Source of the DNA: a virus
Reading direction: 5' to 3' (one strand)
Length of the DNA: 29,349 nt
IMG/VR virus record: IMGVR_UViG_3300037427_001973
Location: 1 to 29,349 of that record
Part shown: piece by piece, positions 11,807-21,909 of the stretch
Position numbering within the stretch: the first letter of the stretch is position 1
Layout of the letters: each line of letters begins with the position of its first letter
The notes under the pieces: generated by a model
The model's input: only the letters and a program-made list of their open reading frames with translations
What the model was told of the DNA's origin: nothing
Database searches by the model: none
Made by a program: the position numbers and the translations under genes

Positions 11807-12844
11807 TTACAGGTTTGGTCTTAATCTAGCAAATTTTTCAGAAACAGATTCAACTAAAGGAGTAAATGATTCTTTAGCAGCAGCTTTAGCTTTACGCTCA
11901 TCTTCAGCTTGTTTAGCTAATGCCTTTTTAGCATCTGCTTCTTTCTTTTTAAGTTCAGCAATATCTTCTTTGCTATCCTCTATTCTTTTTTCTATCTTTT
12001 GAACTTCTTCATCAGATACTCTACCTAACTTTTGATCTCTTTTAGCTTGTTCTAATTCTTTTTCTTTTTTATTAAGTTCGGTTCTTTCAGCTTCTATATT
12101 ATCATTGAATGCTTTAATATCCACTTCATAATTAATTTCTTCAGGATCTTTTTCATTTGGGCTAACATAATCCATTCTCCCAAACATACCATCATCATCT
12201 TTTTTCTTGTCATCCTTTTTTCCACCTTTATCTTCTTTGCCCTTTGCAGCAGCGGCATCAGCATCCTTTTTAAGTTCAGCTGTGGTTTTTCTTTCACCAT
12301 CATCGGTAGTTTTGCCAGTATCAGTTTTTGTATCTGTTGCTTTAGTTGTCTTTTTATCTTTTGCAGCTGCAACTTGATCAGGCGTTGCTTCATAATCAGC
12401 TAATGCTGTTTTTTGTTTAGTAGCTTTAGCTTCAAGTTCTTTTTCTTTAACTTTTAAAGTTTTCTTAATTTCTCCGGAAGCAGATTTTAATACTACTTTA
12501 TTAGCAGCAATTTTAGATTTAGTTTTTCCTAAAGAAACAACTTTCTTTAAACCATCAGTAGTTGCCAAATCATCCATTCTTTGTATAGTAAGATCTACGG
12601 TTTGGTCTATTGCTTTATTTTTAGCATCTTTGGCAAGTTCTAATTTCTTTCTTTGGTCTGGTGTTAATTCTCCTTTTGCTTTTTCTTTTTTCTTCGCATA
12701 GTCAACATCATTTAATGCTTGTGTTACCAATCCTTTTTGATACTTCTTCATATTGTTCTTAATCTTAGTATACTTAATAGGACTCTTAATTGCATCAATG
12801 ATTGCTTCATTGACAAATTCTTTATATGTTTTTAACTTTGCCAT
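11807..12844 (-). CDS. Lys/Glu-rich internal head protein with capsid-targeting sequence
   Basis: A 345-residue, highly charged, low-complexity protein. I chose ATG 12844: it follows a TATATAAA element, and the upstream in-frame extension would run through the gp23 terminator. The N-terminus contains KTYKEFVNEA (5-14), nearly the same as KTYQEFIAEA, the capsid-targeting sequence of T4 internal proteins IPI and IPIII, which gp21 cleaves after the Glu. Cleavage here would fall between E13 and A14. The body has long Lys/Ala/Asp/Glu tracts, a disordered middle (about 180-250) and a coiled coil (about 275-325). A role as a packaged core protein, binding DNA or ejected with it, is inferred. It lies directly downstream of gp23 and its terminator. 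Confidence 0.78.
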   Translation of the reverse strand: MAKLKTYKEFVNEAIIDAIKSPIKYTKIKNNMKKYQKGLVTQALNDVDYAKKKEKAKGELTPDQRKKLELAKDAKNKAIDQTVDLTIQRMDDLATTDGLKKVVSLGKTKSKIAANKVVLKSASGEIKKTLKVKEKELEAKATKQKTALADYEATPDQVAAAKDKKTTKATDTKTDTGKTTDDGERKTTAELKKDADAAAAKGKEDKGGKKDDKKKDDDGMFGRMDYVSPNEKDPEEINYEVDIKAFNDNIEAERTELNKKEKELEQAKRDQKLGRVSDEEVQKIEKRIEDSKEDIAELKKKEADAKKALAKQAEDERKAKAAAKESFTPLVESVSEKFARLRPNL

Positions 12845-12936: not shown

Positions 12937-14820
12937 TTAGATAAGTGAACAACCAGTGAACGTAAAGTTCATTGTGTAATACATTAATTCAGGATTGAAT
13001 CCAGCATCTACTAAAGCGAATCTAGATTTAACCGCAATTTTAGGAGCCATAGTTCCTTCTGCGATTGTCTCAACAGATTCAGCCATTAAGTAAGGCATGA
13101 ATACTAAACCAGGAGAGTTACCATCACCTTTTCTTCCTACACAGATTGTATAGTCATTAAAAGCTCTGTTTGGATCAACATAAACAGTTACCCCAGCGAT
13201 CGCACCGATTGGATATAAAGATCCACCAGCTTGATTAACTGTATTTGATAACGGATATGCAACGAATCCAGCAACTGATTGAAGAGCAGTAGCCATTTCT
13301 CCACCTGTTACAGCGAAGGTAGCTGGTCCTCTTCTACCTCTAGTAGCAATTAAGTTACTTGCAGCAAGAATCTTAGTGTAGACTCTTCTCTGTAAAGTAC
13401 CTTGAGTATTACCACCACCTAGTACGTTAGTCTGTACTGGGAATGCAGCCAAGAATGCACCTGTCGTTAAAATACCATTACCAGTGTTATTCGCACCTAA
13501 TGTAATAGCAGCACCGGCCTGTGCAGCCTGTCCGTTGAATTGCTCAGATAATGAAGTACCGTTTACGTTACCAATATTGATAGTGTTAGTTACACCATTT
13601 CTGAAAATTCTATCCAAGATATACTTGTTGATAGATTGAGTTAACTCATTAACTAATACAGCCTCAACTTGAGCAACAGCATCAATTCCGAATTGCTTCA
13701 GATCTTGAACTTGTTCTCTAGTTACAGCAGCAGCAACTTGGAAAGTTTCAGCAGCTACAGACTTGTTGAATAAGCTAAGTCCCATAATGTTATCAACAGT
13801 TGATTCACCTACACCTCTTTGGTAAGGATCTAAACCGTTAGCATTCTGGTTAGCGAATTGTGGTCCGCCAGTAGCAGGATCATTCGCTGGTTGGAAAGCA
13901 TTACCAGAGAAACCAGTAATATGGTCTTCTAGAGCTTTTACTAAACCTAAGTTAGGAGTAGCACCTACAGTTGCAACAATGTTACCTGCAACTATTACAG
14001 CAGCTAATGCTGGTCTAACACCACCTACTCTTGCAAGTCCGTGAAGTCTTGCACCAGCAGTAATAGAGTTATAAATAGTTGAAGCAGCAGTTTCAGCACC
14101 TTGTGCATAGTTAAATCCACTGTTTACAGTAGAACCAGCAACAGGAGCAGCACCAGGAGCAACAATAGTTGCAGTAGTGTTACCTCTTACTCTGAATATT
14201 GGTAAACCGTCAATTCTTGAAGTTCCAACAAAAGTTAATTCGTAAGAAGCAGCAACAGTGTTACCAGCAACCGGAGTTACAGCAGCAGCAGATGAGTTAA
14301 ATTGATCTGCATAGTAAAGGTCATTTACTGCAAAAGCAGAAGCATCATCGTTAGTTGCTGAAAACTTGATCATTAATGGAGCAGCAGTAGTATCAAGGTT
14401 ACCATTTACAGGTGCACCTGATCCTCTACCTCCACCGTATACAAAGTCTAGGTAAGTTAAAACTCCCATAGGGCCTTGCATTGGTACTACAGGAACTAAG
14501 TCTAAACCTACAGTCTGTGCAGCTACTTGCATTGCAAGTGGTAGCAAAGAAAAAGGTCTGTCTCCAGATCCAGCAGCTTGTGCTGGGAAAGCATTCATTG
14601 ATCCAGGGTTTCCTGGCAATGTAACGTTACCCATACTTTGAACATTCATGTTCGGGTTAAGGTGTACAGTATTGTAAACACTCTCATTAAGGTTGTGGTA
14701 GTGACAGTACTTAGACATCCAAGCTAACTTAGATTTTTCAGTTATGCCAGTACTTTCCTCAATAACAGGTCCCCAAGTCTTTTGAACCTCAGCCTCGTTG
14801 ATTAATTGATTTGCGTACAT
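12937..14820 (-). CDS. 23: Major capsid protein, gp23-like
   Basis: A 627-residue HK97-fold capsid protein. The N-terminal half has the gp23 features KTWGPVIEE (14-22), SKLAWMSKYC, and LLPLAMQVAAQTVGLDLVPV leading to VPMQGPMGVLTYLDFVYG. This corresponds to T4 VGVQPMNGPTGQVFALRAVY. The C-terminal half has the usual LKQFGIDAVAQVEAVLVNEL, LATRGRRGPATF and GDGNSPGLVFMPYL segments. T4 gp23 has 521 residues; the extra length looks like Ala/Gly/Thr-rich sequence around 150-330, probably a surface insertion domain. LINEA at 7-11 could be the gp21 cleavage site, leaving a very short propeptide compared with 65 residues in T4. Codons look less AT-rich than in neighbours, as expected for high expression. 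A strong terminator follows. Confidence 0.95.
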   Translation of the reverse strand: MYANQLINEAEVQKTWGPVIEESTGITEKSKLAWMSKYCHYHNLNESVYNTVHLNPNMNVQSMGNVTLPGNPGSMNAFPAQAAGSGDRPFSLLPLAMQVAAQTVGLDLVPVVPMQGPMGVLTYLDFVYGGGRGSGAPVNGNLDTTAAPLMIKFSATNDDASAFAVNDLYYADQFNSSAAAVTPVAGNTVAASYELTFVGTSRIDGLPIFRVRGNTTATIVAPGAAPVAGSTVNSGFNYAQGAETAASTIYNSITAGARLHGLARVGGVRPALAAVIVAGNIVATVGATPNLGLVKALEDHITGFSGNAFQPANDPATGGPQFANQNANGLDPYQRGVGESTVDNIMGLSLFNKSVAAETFQVAAAVTREQVQDLKQFGIDAVAQVEAVLVNELTQSINKYILDRIFRNGVTNTINIGNVNGTSLSEQFNGQAAQAGAAITLGANNTGNGILTTGAFLAAFPVQTNVLGGGNTQGTLQRRVYTKILAASNLIATRGRRGPATFAVTGGEMATALQSVAGFVAYPLSNTVNQAGGSLYPIGAIAGVTVYVDPNRAFNDYTICVGRKGDGNSPGLVFMPYLMAESVETIAEGTMAPKIAVKSRFALVDAGFNPELMYYTMNFTFTGCSLI

Positions 14821-14924: not shown

Positions 14925-16793
14925 TTATCTACCTAATCTGTGTTTCATTTTTTCGACTAAATCATTTTTAAAAGATTCATTTAATAATGGCTCTTTTTTC
15001 ACAGCAGCCTCAGCAGCTGTTTTACTTTCATTAATCGCTTGTAAATTCATTTGAGTATCTCTCATATCTCTTGTTTGCCAGAAATTATTAATGGCATAAG
15101 GAGTATTTAGAGAATGGAATTTAGATTCAGCAATAATTTGTTCCTTTCTGTTTTCTGAAAGAGTTTCCCATTTAGAAACATATTTTTCTGGCATATCATT
15201 AATAAAGTTAATTGCCTTTCTTTCAGTTATAAAACATGAGTCCCAAACATTTTCTGCTTGTACAGTTGACATAATAGAATCTTTATTCATTGATTCAACT
15301 ATTAAAGTTTTCTTGCTTTCATCTAGAGAATCAAATTGATTCTTTTTAGATTCAGATAAGAAATTCATAAAGTGCATTTCATTAACAGACTTAGCTTCTG
15401 CTTTAGAAATTAAATCATTTAATTTTTCACTTATAGATTCTTTGTAAGATTTCATTTCTTTCATACATGCTTCGCAGTATTCTTTTATCTTACCTTTATC
15501 AGCATCAGGATATTTTTCACAAATTGCTTCATACTTCATACCTTCATCCATACACTTTTTAACTTCTTCCATTGTTGGAGTGTATCCTTCGCTCATTTTC
15601 TTTGCAACAGCATCGGCAGCCATTGCACGACCAACAGCAGCAACTGCTGGAGCAACTTCAGAGATCTCTTTACTTTCATTAATAGATTCTCCTTTAGTAG
15701 CTAATACATTTTCTGCAATGTATTCAGAATACTTAATGCTATTATTTAAATTTTCTGCTACATATTCTGAATAAGCAATATTTTGATCTACCTTTTCAGC
15801 AACATATTCAGAATATTTAATTCCTTTATCTAAGCTTTCTCCTAAGTAATTAGAATATTCAATTCCTTTGTCTGCTTGTTCAGCAACATGCTCAGTATAT
15901 TGAATGGAGTTATCTAATTCTTCACCTAAGTAAGAAGCATAATTTTTAATTTTATCTATATTCTCTGCTAAGTAGTCAGAGTGAGATATACTCTTGTCAA
16001 GATTTTCAGATAAGTATTCAGTATAATCAGTAACTTGATTTACTTTTTCTGCAATATGCTCAGTATATTTAACTAGCTTTTCAATTAACTCATCGTTATT
16101 AGAATTTGCAGATTCCTTAACACTATCCAATGTATTCTTTACATATTCAGTGTACTTATTAAAATCTTCAACAGTTACAAATTTGTCTGATGTATTTTCC
16201 ATTGTTAGATCTGTTTTATTTGTTTTATTTATTTCTTCTTCAGAGTTACCCATTTCATAAATGTATAAACCTTCAGTATTTTCAAAACCAAATGATTCAT
16301 TAACTCTAGCTAATTCTGCATTTTCAAATCCAGGATCAGCAACTAAATCGTATGTAAAGAATTTTTTAATTTTTACCTTTCCTGCTTCATCAACAGTTCC
16401 AGCTGCTCTACTTGAAATATGTAATGGAATACCATCCTCTATTAATGCTTGAGCTTCTTTACCTTTTGAAGTATTTAATAACCTAATTCTTCCTAGTACT
16501 TGTTTCTTATTGCTATCATAATCTAAATCTTCAATAACATGAGAAACATTTGATAGACTAATATCAAAATCTTTTGGGTGGTCAAGTTCACCTAATAGTT
16601 TATTAGTTTTTACCTTTTCCTTTAATTCGTTAATATGAGGAAGTACTTCGGCTTCTTCATAAATTCTGTTGTTTTTATTCTTTACTCCAATCTCTGTAAA
16701 TACACCTTCAAGTACGACAGAGCCATCGGCATCTTTGGTCATACTTAAATTTGACTTAGATCTTTCTAGAATTAAAAGTTTCTTATTAGACAT
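14925..16793 (-). CDS. 21: Prohead protease gp21 fused to a scaffold (gp22-like) domain
   Basis: A 622-residue fusion. Residues 1-170 are the T4 gp21-type serine protease: GVFTEIGVKNKNNRIYEE, LLGELDHP with the presumed catalytic H72, SNVSHVIEDL, then IPLHISSRAAG with the presumed nucleophile S127 or S128, and FFTYDLVADPGF. T4 gp21 alone is 212 residues. From about 200 to 365 there is a long helical part with exact 14-residue repeats, then an acidic/Lys helical region to the C-terminus KMKHRLGR, resembling a prohead core scaffold. In T4 gp21 and gp22 are separate adjacent genes before 23; here both roles appear in one chain. Several V/I/L-N-E-S sites (164-167, 371-374, 587-590, 604-607) could be self-cleavage points that release protease and degrade scaffold. 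Confidence 0.88.
   Translation of the reverse strand: MSNKKLLILERSKSNLSMTKDADGSVVLEGVFTEIGVKNKNNRIYEEAEVLPHINELKEKVKTNKLLGELDHPKDFDISLSNVSHVIEDLDYDSNKKQVLGRIRLLNTSKGKEAQALIEDGIPLHISSRAAGTVDEAGKVKIKKFFTYDLVADPGFENAELARVNESFGFENTEGLYIYEMGNSEEEINKTNKTDLTMENTSDKFVTVEDFNKYTEYVKNTLDSVKESANSNNDELIEKLVKYTEHIAEKVNQVTDYTEYLSENLDKSISHSDYLAENIDKIKNYASYLGEELDNSIQYTEHVAEQADKGIEYSNYLGESLDKGIKYSEYVAEKVDQNIAYSEYVAENLNNSIKYSEYIAENVLATKGESINESKEISEVAPAVAAVGRAMAADAVAKKMSEGYTPTMEEVKKCMDEGMKYEAICEKYPDADKGKIKEYCEACMKEMKSYKESISEKLNDLISKAEAKSVNEMHFMNFLSESKKNQFDSLDESKKTLIVESMNKDSIMSTVQAENVWDSCFITERKAINFINDMPEKYVSKWETLSENRKEQIIAESKFHSLNTPYAINNFWQTRDMRDTQMNLQAINESKTAAEAAVKKEPLLNESFKNDLVEKMKHRLGR
15708..16067 (-). repeat. 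Tandem 14-residue (42-nt) repeats in the scaffold domain
   Basis: Eight complete 14-residue units and a partial ninth start at residues 243, 257, 271, 285, 299, 313, 327, 341 and 355 of the fusion protein. The consensus is Y-S/T-E-Y-V/L-A-E-x-L/V-D-x-S/G-I-x. The first residue is Tyr in all but one unit (His at 271). The spacing has no insertions, so this is a regular helical rod built by duplication. DNA copies have diverged but remain visible as attTCWGMATA-like blocks. Confidence 0.9.
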
Positions 16794-16838: not shown

Positions 16839-18485
16839 TTAGATATCAGCTAATGGGTCTTCATCCATTCCATCAGATTTTTCTTCAGGCTTAAAATCAT
16901 CTTTATTAGCCCCTAAAAGAATCTTTTCAATATCTTCTTCTCTATAACCTGCTTTTTGCAGTTCTTCACGCTCTTTTGCACGAGCATTAGCTTTTATATC
17001 ATCACGGGTAAATCCACCATATCTCTTAATTAAGAATCCTAAATCAAAATATGGTATTTCTTCCATATCAGGTCCCATTGTGCTTAATTGTGTTTTTAGA
17101 TTACCTATAAAATCAACACGTTTAGTTTGAAGTTCCATCTCTTTCATTTCTTCAAATACATTATCCTTAATAAAATCTAAACCTAAACCTGCCTTAAATG
17201 CAACATCATTTTTTAACTCTGGGTGGTTAAGACACATTTGAAGATATACAGGTTTAACTAATACTTCTTGCCATATTGATCTTAATCTTGCAATAAATCT
17301 ACCAAATTTAATTTCATCTCTTAACATACCACTTGCCTCCATATCATATGTATTACCACCTTCTCTATCAAATCGTGAAAATGGAATTTTAGAAGCTAAT
17401 TGTAATTTATCAGAAAAATACTTTAAAGATTCAGTATCACCTAAATCAGGACCGTCACCACCAATAGTTGTAATTTCAGGAGTTTCACCATCTTTAGATG
17501 GTAACCAGTATTCCTTGTTAAACGGCATCATTGGCTTTCCATTGGTTTGAATCTCACCACTCTCAAAATTAAAGTCTACAACCTCACGATATGAGTTCAT
17601 TAAAGTAGCTAAAGATTGTTTTGCTCTGGTTTTTGATTTACCACCAACTGGTATTGTAAACTGAGTTTTAAATGAAGCATTTGATACAGCCCAGATAATT
17701 CTACTATGTTCCATAATTCTTAAAAGATTAAAAGATCTTATTAATCTTTCTACATAAGATATTCTCATTGGTGAATTAACAGAAGAATAAGAAATATAAA
17801 TTATTTGAGAATCCCATAGCTTTCTTTCTTTTGCACCTTCTCCTTTATACTGTATCCAAACTTTTTTACCATCATCGGTATCAATACCTGGCATTAATGA
17901 AATAGGATCTAATTCTTTAAAACCAATAATTTCAGTTTGCTTATCATTATAAACAATCTCAAAGGCAAGAAAACCATCAATTAACCATTTTCTAAAATAA
18001 TTCCAAGGAGCTACAGCATCATTAAAACCAAAGTAGTTATAGATATTATTATAAACATCTGCAATTTCTTCTTCAATTGATTCACCAATATGACCATTAA
18101 ATTCTGCATATGCCATATAATTGGATTCATCATATACAATAGCTTCATCTGTTAATACATCTAAAATATCTTCTATTTCATCTTGAACTGCAAAGGTTCT
18201 TAATTGGTCACGCTTTCTTGTATAATCTTGATCGAAAAACGCAATGTTTTTCTTCATGTTAGTATCAGTTAATGATAATGCTGCAAATGCACCATACATA
18301 TCATCACTGTCTGAGCCCATAGGATTAAAAGTATAACCCATCTGGTTTTCAGTATAACCAACAGCTCTAGAATTACGAATGATCATATCATCGTATGCCA
18401 TTCCTAAATTAGAAAGATCTTTAAGAATTTTTCTAACGGGATTTCCTGTACTTAAAGGTCCTCTTCTATCTGTAAAACCTGCCAT
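16839..18485 (-). CDS. 20: Portal protein, gp20-like
   Basis: A 548-residue portal (T4 gp20 has 524). Twelve copies form the vertex through which DNA enters and leaves, and it nucleates prohead assembly. Family features are RTFAVQDEIEDILDVLTDEAIV (about 96-117), the wing domain with KELDPISLMPG, an ARG-free VNSPMRISYVERLIRSFN segment followed by RIMEHSRIIWAVSNA, and then LATLMNSYREVVDFN. EYWLPSKDG, ITTIGGDGPDLGDTESLKYF and SKIPFSRFDRE follow, as in T4-like portals. The C-terminus is acidic and disordered. It begins 19 nt after the preceding gene and lies directly before the protease-scaffold gene, as in T4 (20, 21, 22, 23). Confidence 0.95.
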   Translation of the reverse strand: MAGFTDRRGPLSTGNPVRKILKDLSNLGMAYDDMIIRNSRAVGYTENQMGYTFNPMGSDSDDMYGAFAALSLTDTNMKKNIAFFDQDYTRKRDQLRTFAVQDEIEDILDVLTDEAIVYDESNYMAYAEFNGHIGESIEEEIADVYNNIYNYFGFNDAVAPWNYFRKWLIDGFLAFEIVYNDKQTEIIGFKELDPISLMPGIDTDDGKKVWIQYKGEGAKERKLWDSQIIYISYSSVNSPMRISYVERLIRSFNLLRIMEHSRIIWAVSNASFKTQFTIPVGGKSKTRAKQSLATLMNSYREVVDFNFESGEIQTNGKPMMPFNKEYWLPSKDGETPEITTIGGDGPDLGDTESLKYFSDKLQLASKIPFSRFDREGGNTYDMEASGMLRDEIKFGRFIARLRSIWQEVLVKPVYLQMCLNHPELKNDVAFKAGLGLDFIKDNVFEEMKEMELQTKRVDFIGNLKTQLSTMGPDMEEIPYFDLGFLIKRYGGFTRDDIKANARAKEREELQKAGYREEDIEKILLGANKDDFKPEEKSDGMDEDPLADI

Positions 18486-20025: not shown

Positions 20026-21909
20026 TTAGATCTTAACTTCTAAATCTTCTTTAGGAAGTACAATACTCTTTCCATTTTTAGGAACTATAATTGTTAATAA
20101 ATCATCATCACCTAGAGAAGCGTATTCTTCAGCATTAACTAATACTTCTTGTCTCTTTTTTAAACCTTGACCGTTCTTTTTAACAGATGCTTCTACAAAA
20201 CCATCATTTAAATAGTCGTCTTTAGTTTTTTTTTCAGAAATATATGAATCAGCTAATTCTTTTTCTTTTCCTTTTAACTCAGCTTCTAATAAATTTAGAG
20301 CTTCAGTTAATTCTTCAGTTTCGCCAATTTTATTAATAGTTGCTTTAACTTCTGCTTTCTTTTCTTCTAAAAATGAGATAGCATCAGAAATATCTTTTCT
20401 TTTATTTTCCTCAATTGCTTTTTCATTATCTTCAGCAATTAATCTTTCAGATAATAAAGAAGAAAGATCAAAGTTAACAAATTCTTTTACGATATCTACA
20501 GTTTCAGTAGCAGTATCATATTTCTTCATTTCATTTATTCCCATTCCTGGATTTACAGTGTTAACATAAATACCTTCGTCTAATGCAATTACACTTACAA
20601 ATACATCTTTATGTGCTTGTGATTGAATAGTTGTAAAGTTATCCATTTCAGCAAGTAAATCAACTGATTCAAAGAATTTGCAAATTTTATCATTTTGCCA
20701 CTGATTTCTATAACCTGAAAAATTAGTTGCTAATAAAGCTTCTTTTAATTCAATGATACTGTAATTAGTCATATCAACTTTACCCATTGATAATGTACCT
20801 TCAGCAATGTTATATTCTAAAGATTTACCATTTTCTCCATGTAAAGAAAGAATGTTTTCATTTCTTGAAAACATATCTATACCTTCACTTACATCAAAGA
20901 ATCTTGGATCAGTTACATTAGCTTCAGTAATATCAGCTCCATTAAAATTATAATTCTTTCCATGTAATCTAAATGTTAATCCATTTTCAGATTCTAAAAC
21001 TGGAGAAAGAACAGAAACAACTTTTCCGTTTGCAGTAGAAGCTACGTTTGTATCTTCAGCATTCATTTCATTTACTATTGCTTTACAATCCATTGACCAT
21101 GGGTTCTTAGCAGCAACAGCAGCAAATTTAGATTTTACATCTGATTCATTTAATAAAGATGTTAAATCATTTGTTAATGATTCCATTAGTTTTCCTTTCT
21201 GATAAGATACTCTATCAATAGATTCACTAATTCTATAACTCCATTTTGCTGAGTTATATGATTCCATAATATATTCTCTTAATTCAGAAACTGGCTGTAA
21301 CCAAGTATTAGCTCCTAATTTACTATATAAATTTCTAGCTATTTGGAATTTAAGATTAGGATTAGTTGCATTTTCTATTTCTTCACTAATTTGTGAAAGG
21401 TCAGCATTTTTTAATTTCATAGGGAATGCATTTATAGCCTCCTCTAAAATAGTTAAAGATTCCTTAACAGAATATGAAACTCTGGAACTATCATTGTCCA
21501 TAGCCTTTAAGCCGTTAATACTCTCCATAACGTTTTCATACAGATCTGTTAATGTAAAGTTCATTTTGTTATGATTTTTTTGATTATTATTTTCAGTGTA
21601 TATATCGGATTTGTCTTTGTGGTTTTCTAAATACTTAGCTATACCGACTTGAGCCATTGTTTGAGGAATACCCATCCCTACTAAAATAGTAAGTACTTGT
21701 TCTTTACTTATTGATCCACTATGGTCAATTTTAAAGTCATTGTCAATATCTGACATTCTACCGCTTTGGCTGAACAATACATGGATTATATCCATTAATT
21801 GTTGTGGAGGATTTTGTAAGTATTCTTGGTCCTGGTTTACACCAGCTTGGGATTCTACCCTACCATCAGCATATACTTGTGTTTGTCCTTCGTTCATTGT
21901 GTTTTCCAT
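20026..21909 (-). CDS. Large unknown protein, probable head/virion-associated
   Basis: A 627-residue protein I do not recognise. The Gln/Asn-rich N-terminus (1-115) includes DNDFKIDHSGSISKEQ (57-72), which resembles a degenerate EF-hand loop. An alternative in-frame ATG at residue 116 (MNFTLTDLYENVMESINGL) starts the compact part. The middle is helical then beta-rich (about 270-440). A coiled coil follows (about 490-560, EEKKAEVKATINKIGETEEL), and a Lys-rich C-terminal domain ends PKEDLEVKI. There are no membrane segments. It has a strong TATATAAAACAAAT element upstream and its own terminator, so it is a separate, probably late, transcript. LLNES at 252-256 resembles the putative gp21 cleavage motif in neighbouring head proteins. 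A core or structural role is inferred only. Confidence 0.7.
   Translation of the reverse strand: MENTMNEGQTQVYADGRVESQAGVNQDQEYLQNPPQQLMDIIHVLFSQSGRMSDIDNDFKIDHSGSISKEQVLTILVGMGIPQTMAQVGIAKYLENHKDKSDIYTENNNQKNHNKMNFTLTDLYENVMESINGLKAMDNDSSRVSYSVKESLTILEEAINAFPMKLKNADLSQISEEIENATNPNLKFQIARNLYSKLGANTWLQPVSELREYIMESYNSAKWSYRISESIDRVSYQKGKLMESLTNDLTSLLNESDVKSKFAAVAAKNPWSMDCKAIVNEMNAEDTNVASTANGKVVSVLSPVLESENGLTFRLHGKNYNFNGADITEANVTDPRFFDVSEGIDMFSRNENILSLHGENGKSLEYNIAEGTLSMGKVDMTNYSIIELKEALLATNFSGYRNQWQNDKICKFFESVDLLAEMDNFTTIQSQAHKDVFVSVIALDEGIYVNTVNPGMGINEMKKYDTATETVDIVKEFVNFDLSSLLSERLIAEDNEKAIEENKRKDISDAISFLEEKKAEVKATINKIGETEELTEALNLLEAELKGKEKELADSYISEKKTKDDYLNDGFVEASVKKNGQGLKKRQEVLVNAEEYASLGDDDLLTIIVPKNGKSIVLPKEDLEVKI

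Follow-up and report, generated by a model that had tools for sequence, protein, structure and literature searches.

A tandem array of units resembling T4 capsid-targeting and cleavage motifs in a megaphage-type protease–scaffold gene

Results

A fused protease–scaffold gene between the portal and capsid genes

The stretch of viral DNA analyzed here (the window; 29,349 nucleotides of the IMG/VR record IMGVR_UViG_3300037427_001973) carries on its minus strand, with a gp20-type portal gene on one side and a gp23-type major capsid gene on the other, a single ORF that joins a prohead protease to a scaffold (Table 1). The 622-residue product belongs to the Peptidase_S77 family (53.4 bits; curated cut-off, 27), and the PHROG 207 head maturation protease family covers its residues 7–591 (E = 5e-36). 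Its domain order is protease, array of short units, variable linker and conserved helical C-terminal part, the last being recognizable by eye even in Lak and Tenacibaculum phages. Upstream of this region lie gp55-, gp2- and gp15-like genes, assigned by family matches, together with gp4-, gp41- and gp46/47-like genes read from their translations by eye.

Table 1 Features of the window, their positions and the observations on which they rest
Feature	Position	Strand	Basis
Fused prohead protease and scaffold gene, 622 aa	14925..16793	-	ORF; Peptidase_S77; PHROG 207
gp21-type protease domain, about aa 5–170	16284..16781	-	Conserved residues and 5jbl matches
Putative release site VNE/S, aa 164–167, protease/scaffold junction	16293..16304	-	Motif conservation
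Met198, where a scaffold-only product may start internally	16200..16202	-	Conserved Met, codon constraint
Array of nine 14-residue units, aa 243–368	15690..16067	-	Targeting-like Y1/[YH]4, cleavage-like [ILV]5-x-E7
C-terminal helical domain, about aa 448–580	15054..15452	-	Alignment, model
Major capsid protein, gp23 family	12937..14820	-	Gp23, 107 bits (cut-off 24.4)
Putative maturation site LNE/S, capsid protein N-arm	14680..14691	-	Conserved motif
Portal protein, gp20 family	16839..18485	-	244 bits (cut-off 22.9)
345-aa ORF immediately after the capsid gene, putative tagged cargo	11807..12844	-	Start MAKLKT[YKEFVNE]A
Capsid-targeting-like tag YKEFVNE of the 345-aa ORF	12806..12826	-	Sequence match
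[ILV]xE-rich ORF of 627 aa, candidate for a second core or internal head protein	20026..21909	-	Motif excess

Foldseek matched the protease domain to the gp21 fold (5jbl; E = 7e-9, TM on target 0.70), and the domain also matched 5jbl in sequence (E = 4e-4). His72, His85, Ser127 and Ser128 are unchanged across 47 aligned relatives; we take His72, Ser127 and Ser128 to be the catalytic residues. His72 pairs with Ala in the 5jbl chain, and the T4 gene has His at this position. At the junction with the scaffold, 196 of 198 relatives have [VIL]NE[SA] behind the PGF motif, with Asn165 and Glu166 of the putative release site unchanged in 47/47. Searches of Pfam and PHROGs at E = 0.001 gave no gp22 family for the scaffold part. 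Its likeness to gp22 lies in its position between the protease and the capsid gene and in its richness in L/I-x-E sites. The initial annotation had suggested a protein of the phage head or its core, and both the gp21-type protease domain and the location between the portal and major capsid genes bear this out.

Nine units at an exact 14-residue spacing

Units of the form [YH]xx[YH][ILV][AGS]E begin at residues 243, 257, 271, 285, 299, 313, 327, 341 and 355 without a single indel, and the array that they make up runs from YTEHIAEKVNQVTD to YSEYIAENVLATKG. None of 2000 shuffles of the 622-residue protein gave even two units 14 residues apart, and the best self-match at lag 14 scored 277, whereas 100 shuffles reached no more than 48. 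The exact spacing with Tyr at position 1, as well as the pattern Tyr-x-x-Tyr/His-x-Ala/Gly/Ser-Glu-x-x-Asp/Asn, had been noted in the initial annotation, and the ORF translation confirmed both. The same array had been described there as eight full repeats and one partial; its low end at 15708 truncates a ninth unit whose last residues are degenerate. That description gave no strand (the array is encoded on the minus strand) and overlooked the T4-type cleavage and targeting motif within each unit.

Conservation of the units among relatives

The nearest matches to the fusion protein in the annotated collections come from uncultured phages with genomes of 462 to 735 kb. A query restricted to the array region retrieved only these megaphage records, six in all (two of them both 735,411 bases long), and one match at E = 1. 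Of 230 IMG/VR relatives of the window protein we took the best 80, together with 118 further loci found with three megaphage queries, one of which contributed the best 80 of 103; clade counts are therefore weighted toward close relatives. A total of 203 extracted proteins and that of the window were sorted into clades A (window type), B (634–642 kb), C (735 kb) and D (462 kb), with fragments and Lak records kept apart.

Within the unit, [ILV]-x-Glu (positions 5–7) varies least, being present in 995/995 units of clades A and B: 370/370 in 41 distinct clade A arrays (sampled from the best 80 of 230) and 625/625 in 52 distinct clade B arrays among the relatives taken. Tyr1 is less constant than Glu7 (96% in clade A, 92% in clade B). 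Glu7 drops to 108/113 units in clade C and to just 61/86 in clade D, where Tyr and the hydrophobic positions are retained. At the codon level, Glu7 alternates between GAA and GAG in 8/9 clade A and 12/12 clade B units with zero replacements. The same unit in different clade A genomes is 0.76–0.92 alike, as against 0.45–0.68 for different units within one genome; the inner units of clade B are homogenized, being about 0.8 alike within as well as between genomes.

Full-length clade A loci (best 80 of 230) have 9 copies in 80/81 cases and 10 in 1/81. Among the relatives taken, those of clade B have 12 (72 loci), 13 (5) or 11 (5), those of clade C 13 (5) or 12 (4), and those of clade D 9 (9), 8 (6), 12 (2) or 5 (1), all counts being uncertain by about one because the end units are weak. 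The expectation that copy number could vary between relatives thus holds for clade B (11–13), while clade A is almost fixed. The sole 10-unit member of clade A (L061, 806–2737) appears to have duplicated unit 7 and carries an extra insert in the linker. The two Lak phage records (541 and 550 kb) have no units, with an acidic stretch instead, and retain the protease and C-terminal parts. Two further loci stood out: a 62-residue ORF with YNDYIAERTKDIS and YADYIAERIMGIS, apparently 13-residue versions of the unit (L215, 424–612), and a 1207-residue protease fusion of Chryseobacterium phage MA9V-2 (L213, 2902–6525), which is far longer than the others and has many INES/LNES motifs. No description of a tandem array of such units appeared in the titles and abstract openings of the open-access literature.

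The unit resembles the T4 capsid-targeting sequence

T4 IPII and IPIII open with MKTYQEFIAEA. Suppressor genetics assigned residues 4 and 7 of this tag mainly to targeting and residues 8 and 10 to processing, and Asp at position 10 blocked processing but not targeting (PMC9026906). Tyr4, Phe7, Ile8 and Glu10 of the tag coincide in register with positions 1, 4, 5 and 7 of the unit. Independently of this comparison by eye, a profile built from the array units alone put YQEFIAE (12.6 bits; runner-up, 6.4) at the top of the 12,650 7-mers found in the open frames of 26.5 kb of T4 sequence.

We then scanned the six megaphage records at the DNA level for YxE[FY]-[aliphatic or F]-x-E. This pattern matched at 103 places, of which 43 lie inside arrays by our own count and 60 outside, compared with 9 in all for the same pattern read backwards. 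Of the 60 extra-array matches, 36 are N-terminal (35 among 58 read together and one read separately), with Tyr typically three to seven residues from Met, and 24 are not. Such a share would be very unlikely at a chance rate of 10–20%, though many of the matches are paralogues; since paralogues and orthologues are included, the 36 are not independent events. All 37 extra-array matches in clade A loci (relatives from the best 80 of 230) are N-terminal, and in the eight clade A contigs read in detail the tag belongs to the ORF that follows the capsid gene. Scanned in the same way, the short loci of clades B, C and D gave 2, 0 and 0 matches, one of them N-terminal. The two Lak records showed no excess of the motif (4 and 1 matches; controls, 2 and 2), and T4 gave 6 matches, two of which are its known tags.

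Tags mostly read YxEFxNE or YxEFxxE and array units YxEYxAE. Some megaphage ORFs contain several units, among them a short protein with four (LR745206) and a 210-residue frame with three near its end (LR756501). In LR756500, N-terminal positions account for 13 of 15 extra-array matches, many of them reading MKYIxE[YxEFxxE], and a cluster of tags near 313.5–316.7 kb may represent a family of imported head proteins. Short N-terminal YxxF-[IL]xE sequences of the T4 kind are therefore present in these phages as judged by sequence and placement, and the likeness of the array unit to the T4 capsid-targeting tag is, at this level, strong.

Cleavage-type motifs in the array, the scaffold and the capsid protein

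T4 gp21 cleaves C-terminal to L/I-X-E, and gp22 as well as the small core proteins end up in several pieces (PMC9026906). Each array unit holds a motif of this type at positions 5–7. The capsid N-arm has [ILM][NYH]E[NS] in 114/114 anchored relatives of 191 tried, anchoring on GMG having dropped 77/191, including most of clade A; the site in the window was read directly from its own capsid ORF translation.

In whole-protein counts compared with shuffles, [ILV]xE occurs 37 times in the fusion protein (15.2 expected; z = 7.1) and 31 times in the 627-residue ORF on the minus strand (13.4; z = 5.6), for which no Pfam or PHROG family was matched. The capsid protein has a smaller excess (9 versus 4.2; z = 2.6). 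Among 24 other ORFs of the window there was one with an excess (9 versus 3.5; z = 3.2), a UvsX-like fragment as read by eye. An excess was also found in T4 gp22 (20 versus 10.1), in T4 gp21 and in the scaffolds of PTm1 (34 versus 14.3), pT24 (33 versus 16.4) and Lak phage (22 versus 12.1). T4 gp67 (3 versus 2.8) had none, nor was a significant one seen in the portal proteins tested. A 617-residue ORF at a like position in LR756500 (L002, 1129–2979) also has more of these motifs than expected (25 versus 13.6).

Within the array the reversed motif Ex[ILV] is equally enriched because the helix repeats, and enrichment there was accordingly dropped as evidence. With the array removed, the window protein has 19 forward motifs (6.9 expected) and 14 reversed ones (7.1 expected), and two relatives treated in the same way (L005 and L006) show no directional excess. 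A stricter motif, [ILV][NASGT]E[SANG], was not relied on, having been picked after the sites were seen. We predict with moderate confidence that cleavage occurs after Glu7 of the units.

Helix, phase and array length

AlphaFold2 models built with 35 close and 47 diverse relatives reached mean pLDDT values of 48 and 59.8, respectively, with improvement in the protease and C-terminal parts and none in the array. Both models draw one helix at residues 272–362/363, with a pLDDT of about 35. The helical rod envisaged in the initial annotation is thus drawn, at low confidence. The accompanying idea that 14 residues equal two heptads, as in a classic coiled coil, did not hold up: the a/d pattern is absent, hydrophobicity is highest at positions 1, 4, 5, 9 and 13 with positions 8 and 11 polar, and its power is divided between periods of 3.5 and 4.67.

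An extra upstream unit stands in phase in 69/69 clade B loci where one was found (17 of the 86 clade B loci have none) and in 8/10 clade C loci; this in-phase continuation across interruptions favors a continuous helix. Repeat number had also been proposed as a ruler for head size. Strict in-phase counts are 4 (462 kb), 13 (634.8 kb), 12 (636 kb), 12 (642 kb) and 13 (735 kb, omitting one out-of-phase match), and with genome length standing in for head size they follow no trend; clade B ranges from 11 to 13 and Lak phages have none. This comparison of five long records and two Lak records is of low power and makes a weak test of a ruler, since linear size goes with about the cube root of genome length and a change of only 1–2 units would be expected. 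The data give a ruler by copy number little encouragement; given this weak test and the near-fixed count in clade A, array length may have some role.

A possible internal start for the scaffold

From a fusion gene, protease and scaffold come in equal numbers; T4, by contrast, makes gp22 in excess. Nested protease–scaffold genes are a known arrangement, as in C/Nu3 of phage lambda. Met198 is unchanged in 47 relatives of 35–92% identity, and some Met occurs in the linker of 198/198. Codon diversity reaches its minimum for the gene at codons 181–210 (permutation p = 0.00125 for codons 184–204, with seven usable codons only). The T4 stoichiometry is about 55 gp21 to 580 gp22 (PMC9958956), and the herpesvirus UL26/UL26.5 genes form a nested pair with a release site (PMC2949831). 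These observations hint that an internal start at Met198 might give the scaffold alone. A TATAAATA-like late promoter upstream of Met198 (7/8 bases at -31) was discarded, as 161 places in the window match equally well. An AT-rich AATAAATAAAACAAATAAAAC precedes Met198 (16202 region, minus strand) and resembles stretches ahead of real gene starts in the window.

Discussion

We consider it probable that the array, as part of a scaffold for a T4-like megaphage head, consists of tandem capsid-targeting and maturation-cleavage units, and propose a plausible course of events. The gene would give rise to the protease–scaffold fusion and probably, from the internal Met, to the scaffold alone. The units would make up a long amphipathic helix, with a Tyr/hydrophobic face that binds the prohead core together, and other phage proteins with one to four units, mostly N-terminal, would be drawn into the core, as suggested by T4. 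Once the shell is complete, the protease would cut after Glu7 of every unit, behind its own domain and at the N-arm of the capsid protein. The core would then break into peptides of about 14 residues that are gone before DNA entry, and the cargo would be freed from its tag. Several observations speak against this targeting and cleavage scheme: the spacing is more exact than a supply of cut sites requires, clade D units keep Tyr and the hydrophobic residues while losing Glu, the reversed motif is as enriched inside the array, L005 and L006 have no directional excess once the array is removed, tags and units differ in their usual form, and 24 of the 60 extra-array matches are not N-terminal.

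One rival is structural: a rod or ruler in which every unit adds a fixed length (about 2.1 nm for a helical unit), the number of copies sets core or head size and Glu7 serves packing or salt bridges. The exact spacing, copy number changing only by whole units, its near fixation at nine in clade A (80/81 loci, best 80 of 230), the in-phase upstream units of clades B (69/69) and C (8/10) and the helix in both AlphaFold2 models fit this picture. We nevertheless judge it unlikely, given that copies are unrelated to genome size across 462–735 kb, that Lak phages have no array and that close relatives differ by 1–2 units; salt bridges, moreover, would not predict an unchanging Glu7 beside a variable position 11, and the N-terminal copies of the 7-mer in other proteins would be left unexplained.

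If the units only supplied cleavage sites in a helical scaffold and had no part in targeting, their likeness to the T4 tag would simply follow from a protease specificity common to both. Scaffolds without an array (T4 gp22, pT24 and Lak) are likewise enriched in [ILV]xE, as this would predict. Positions 1 and 4 (Tyr and Tyr/His/Phe) are not demanded by the cleavage motif, yet they are kept in units and tags alike, correspond to the T4 targeting positions and persist in clade D where Glu7 is lost, all of which makes this reading quite improbable. That the repeats spread by slippage, as neutral tandem duplications with nothing special about them, is barely credible: the homogenized inner units of clade B (about 0.8 alike within and between genomes) and the apparent duplication of unit 7 in L061 are of the kind expected, but clade A units are closer to their counterparts (0.76–0.92) than to units of their own genome (0.45–0.68), Glu7 has no replacements in clades A and B, and such strong codon-level constraint already renders neutral duplication unlikely.

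The targeting and cleavage reading would mean that one code may serve to build the scaffold, to mark where it is destroyed and to sort the cargo. Possibly, and here we are more tentative, the tag and the scaffold lattice of the largest phages are one homotypic code. Cargo would then dock in place of one unit, the length of the array would determine core geometry or cargo capacity, and a single cut in every 14 residues would take core and tags apart together. Should the scaffold unit indeed be the import tag, direct testing with 14-residue peptides would be possible. The tag would also make it possible to list, from sequence alone, candidate proteins for carriage in megaphage heads and for injection, and such lists are otherwise unattainable for uncultured phages.

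The closest parallels are found in T4. As in the IPII/IPIII tag MKTYQEFIAE, a YxE[FY][IL]xE core lies in register at the N-terminus of dozens of megaphage proteins, and also of the ORF following the capsid gene of the window; unlike T4, whose gp22 is without an array, the scaffold here also has the core as 9–13 tandem copies. With gp21/gp22 the locus shares the protease family and fold, the portal–capsid gene order and a scaffold with many L/I-x-E sites, but it has protease and scaffold in one gene. In this respect it is reminiscent of UL26/UL26.5 and of lambda C/Nu3, which combine a protease–scaffold fusion, a release site and an in-frame internal start, the last being a possible feature of the window. 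In contrast, the internal start in the window is a prediction, and the UL26/UL26.5 literature consulted describes no tandem cleavage units. The ‘prohead core scaffolding protein and protease’ of Tenacibaculum phage PTm1 is likewise a fused gene with repeats in the same region, although the genome is 225 kb and the 16-residue unit is of unrelated sequence. Its array (L091, 6073–7767) has a period of 16 with two alternating unit types and [LI]xE in 7/7 units, which indicates that the common feature is a cut site per repeat, rather than the 14-residue spacing.
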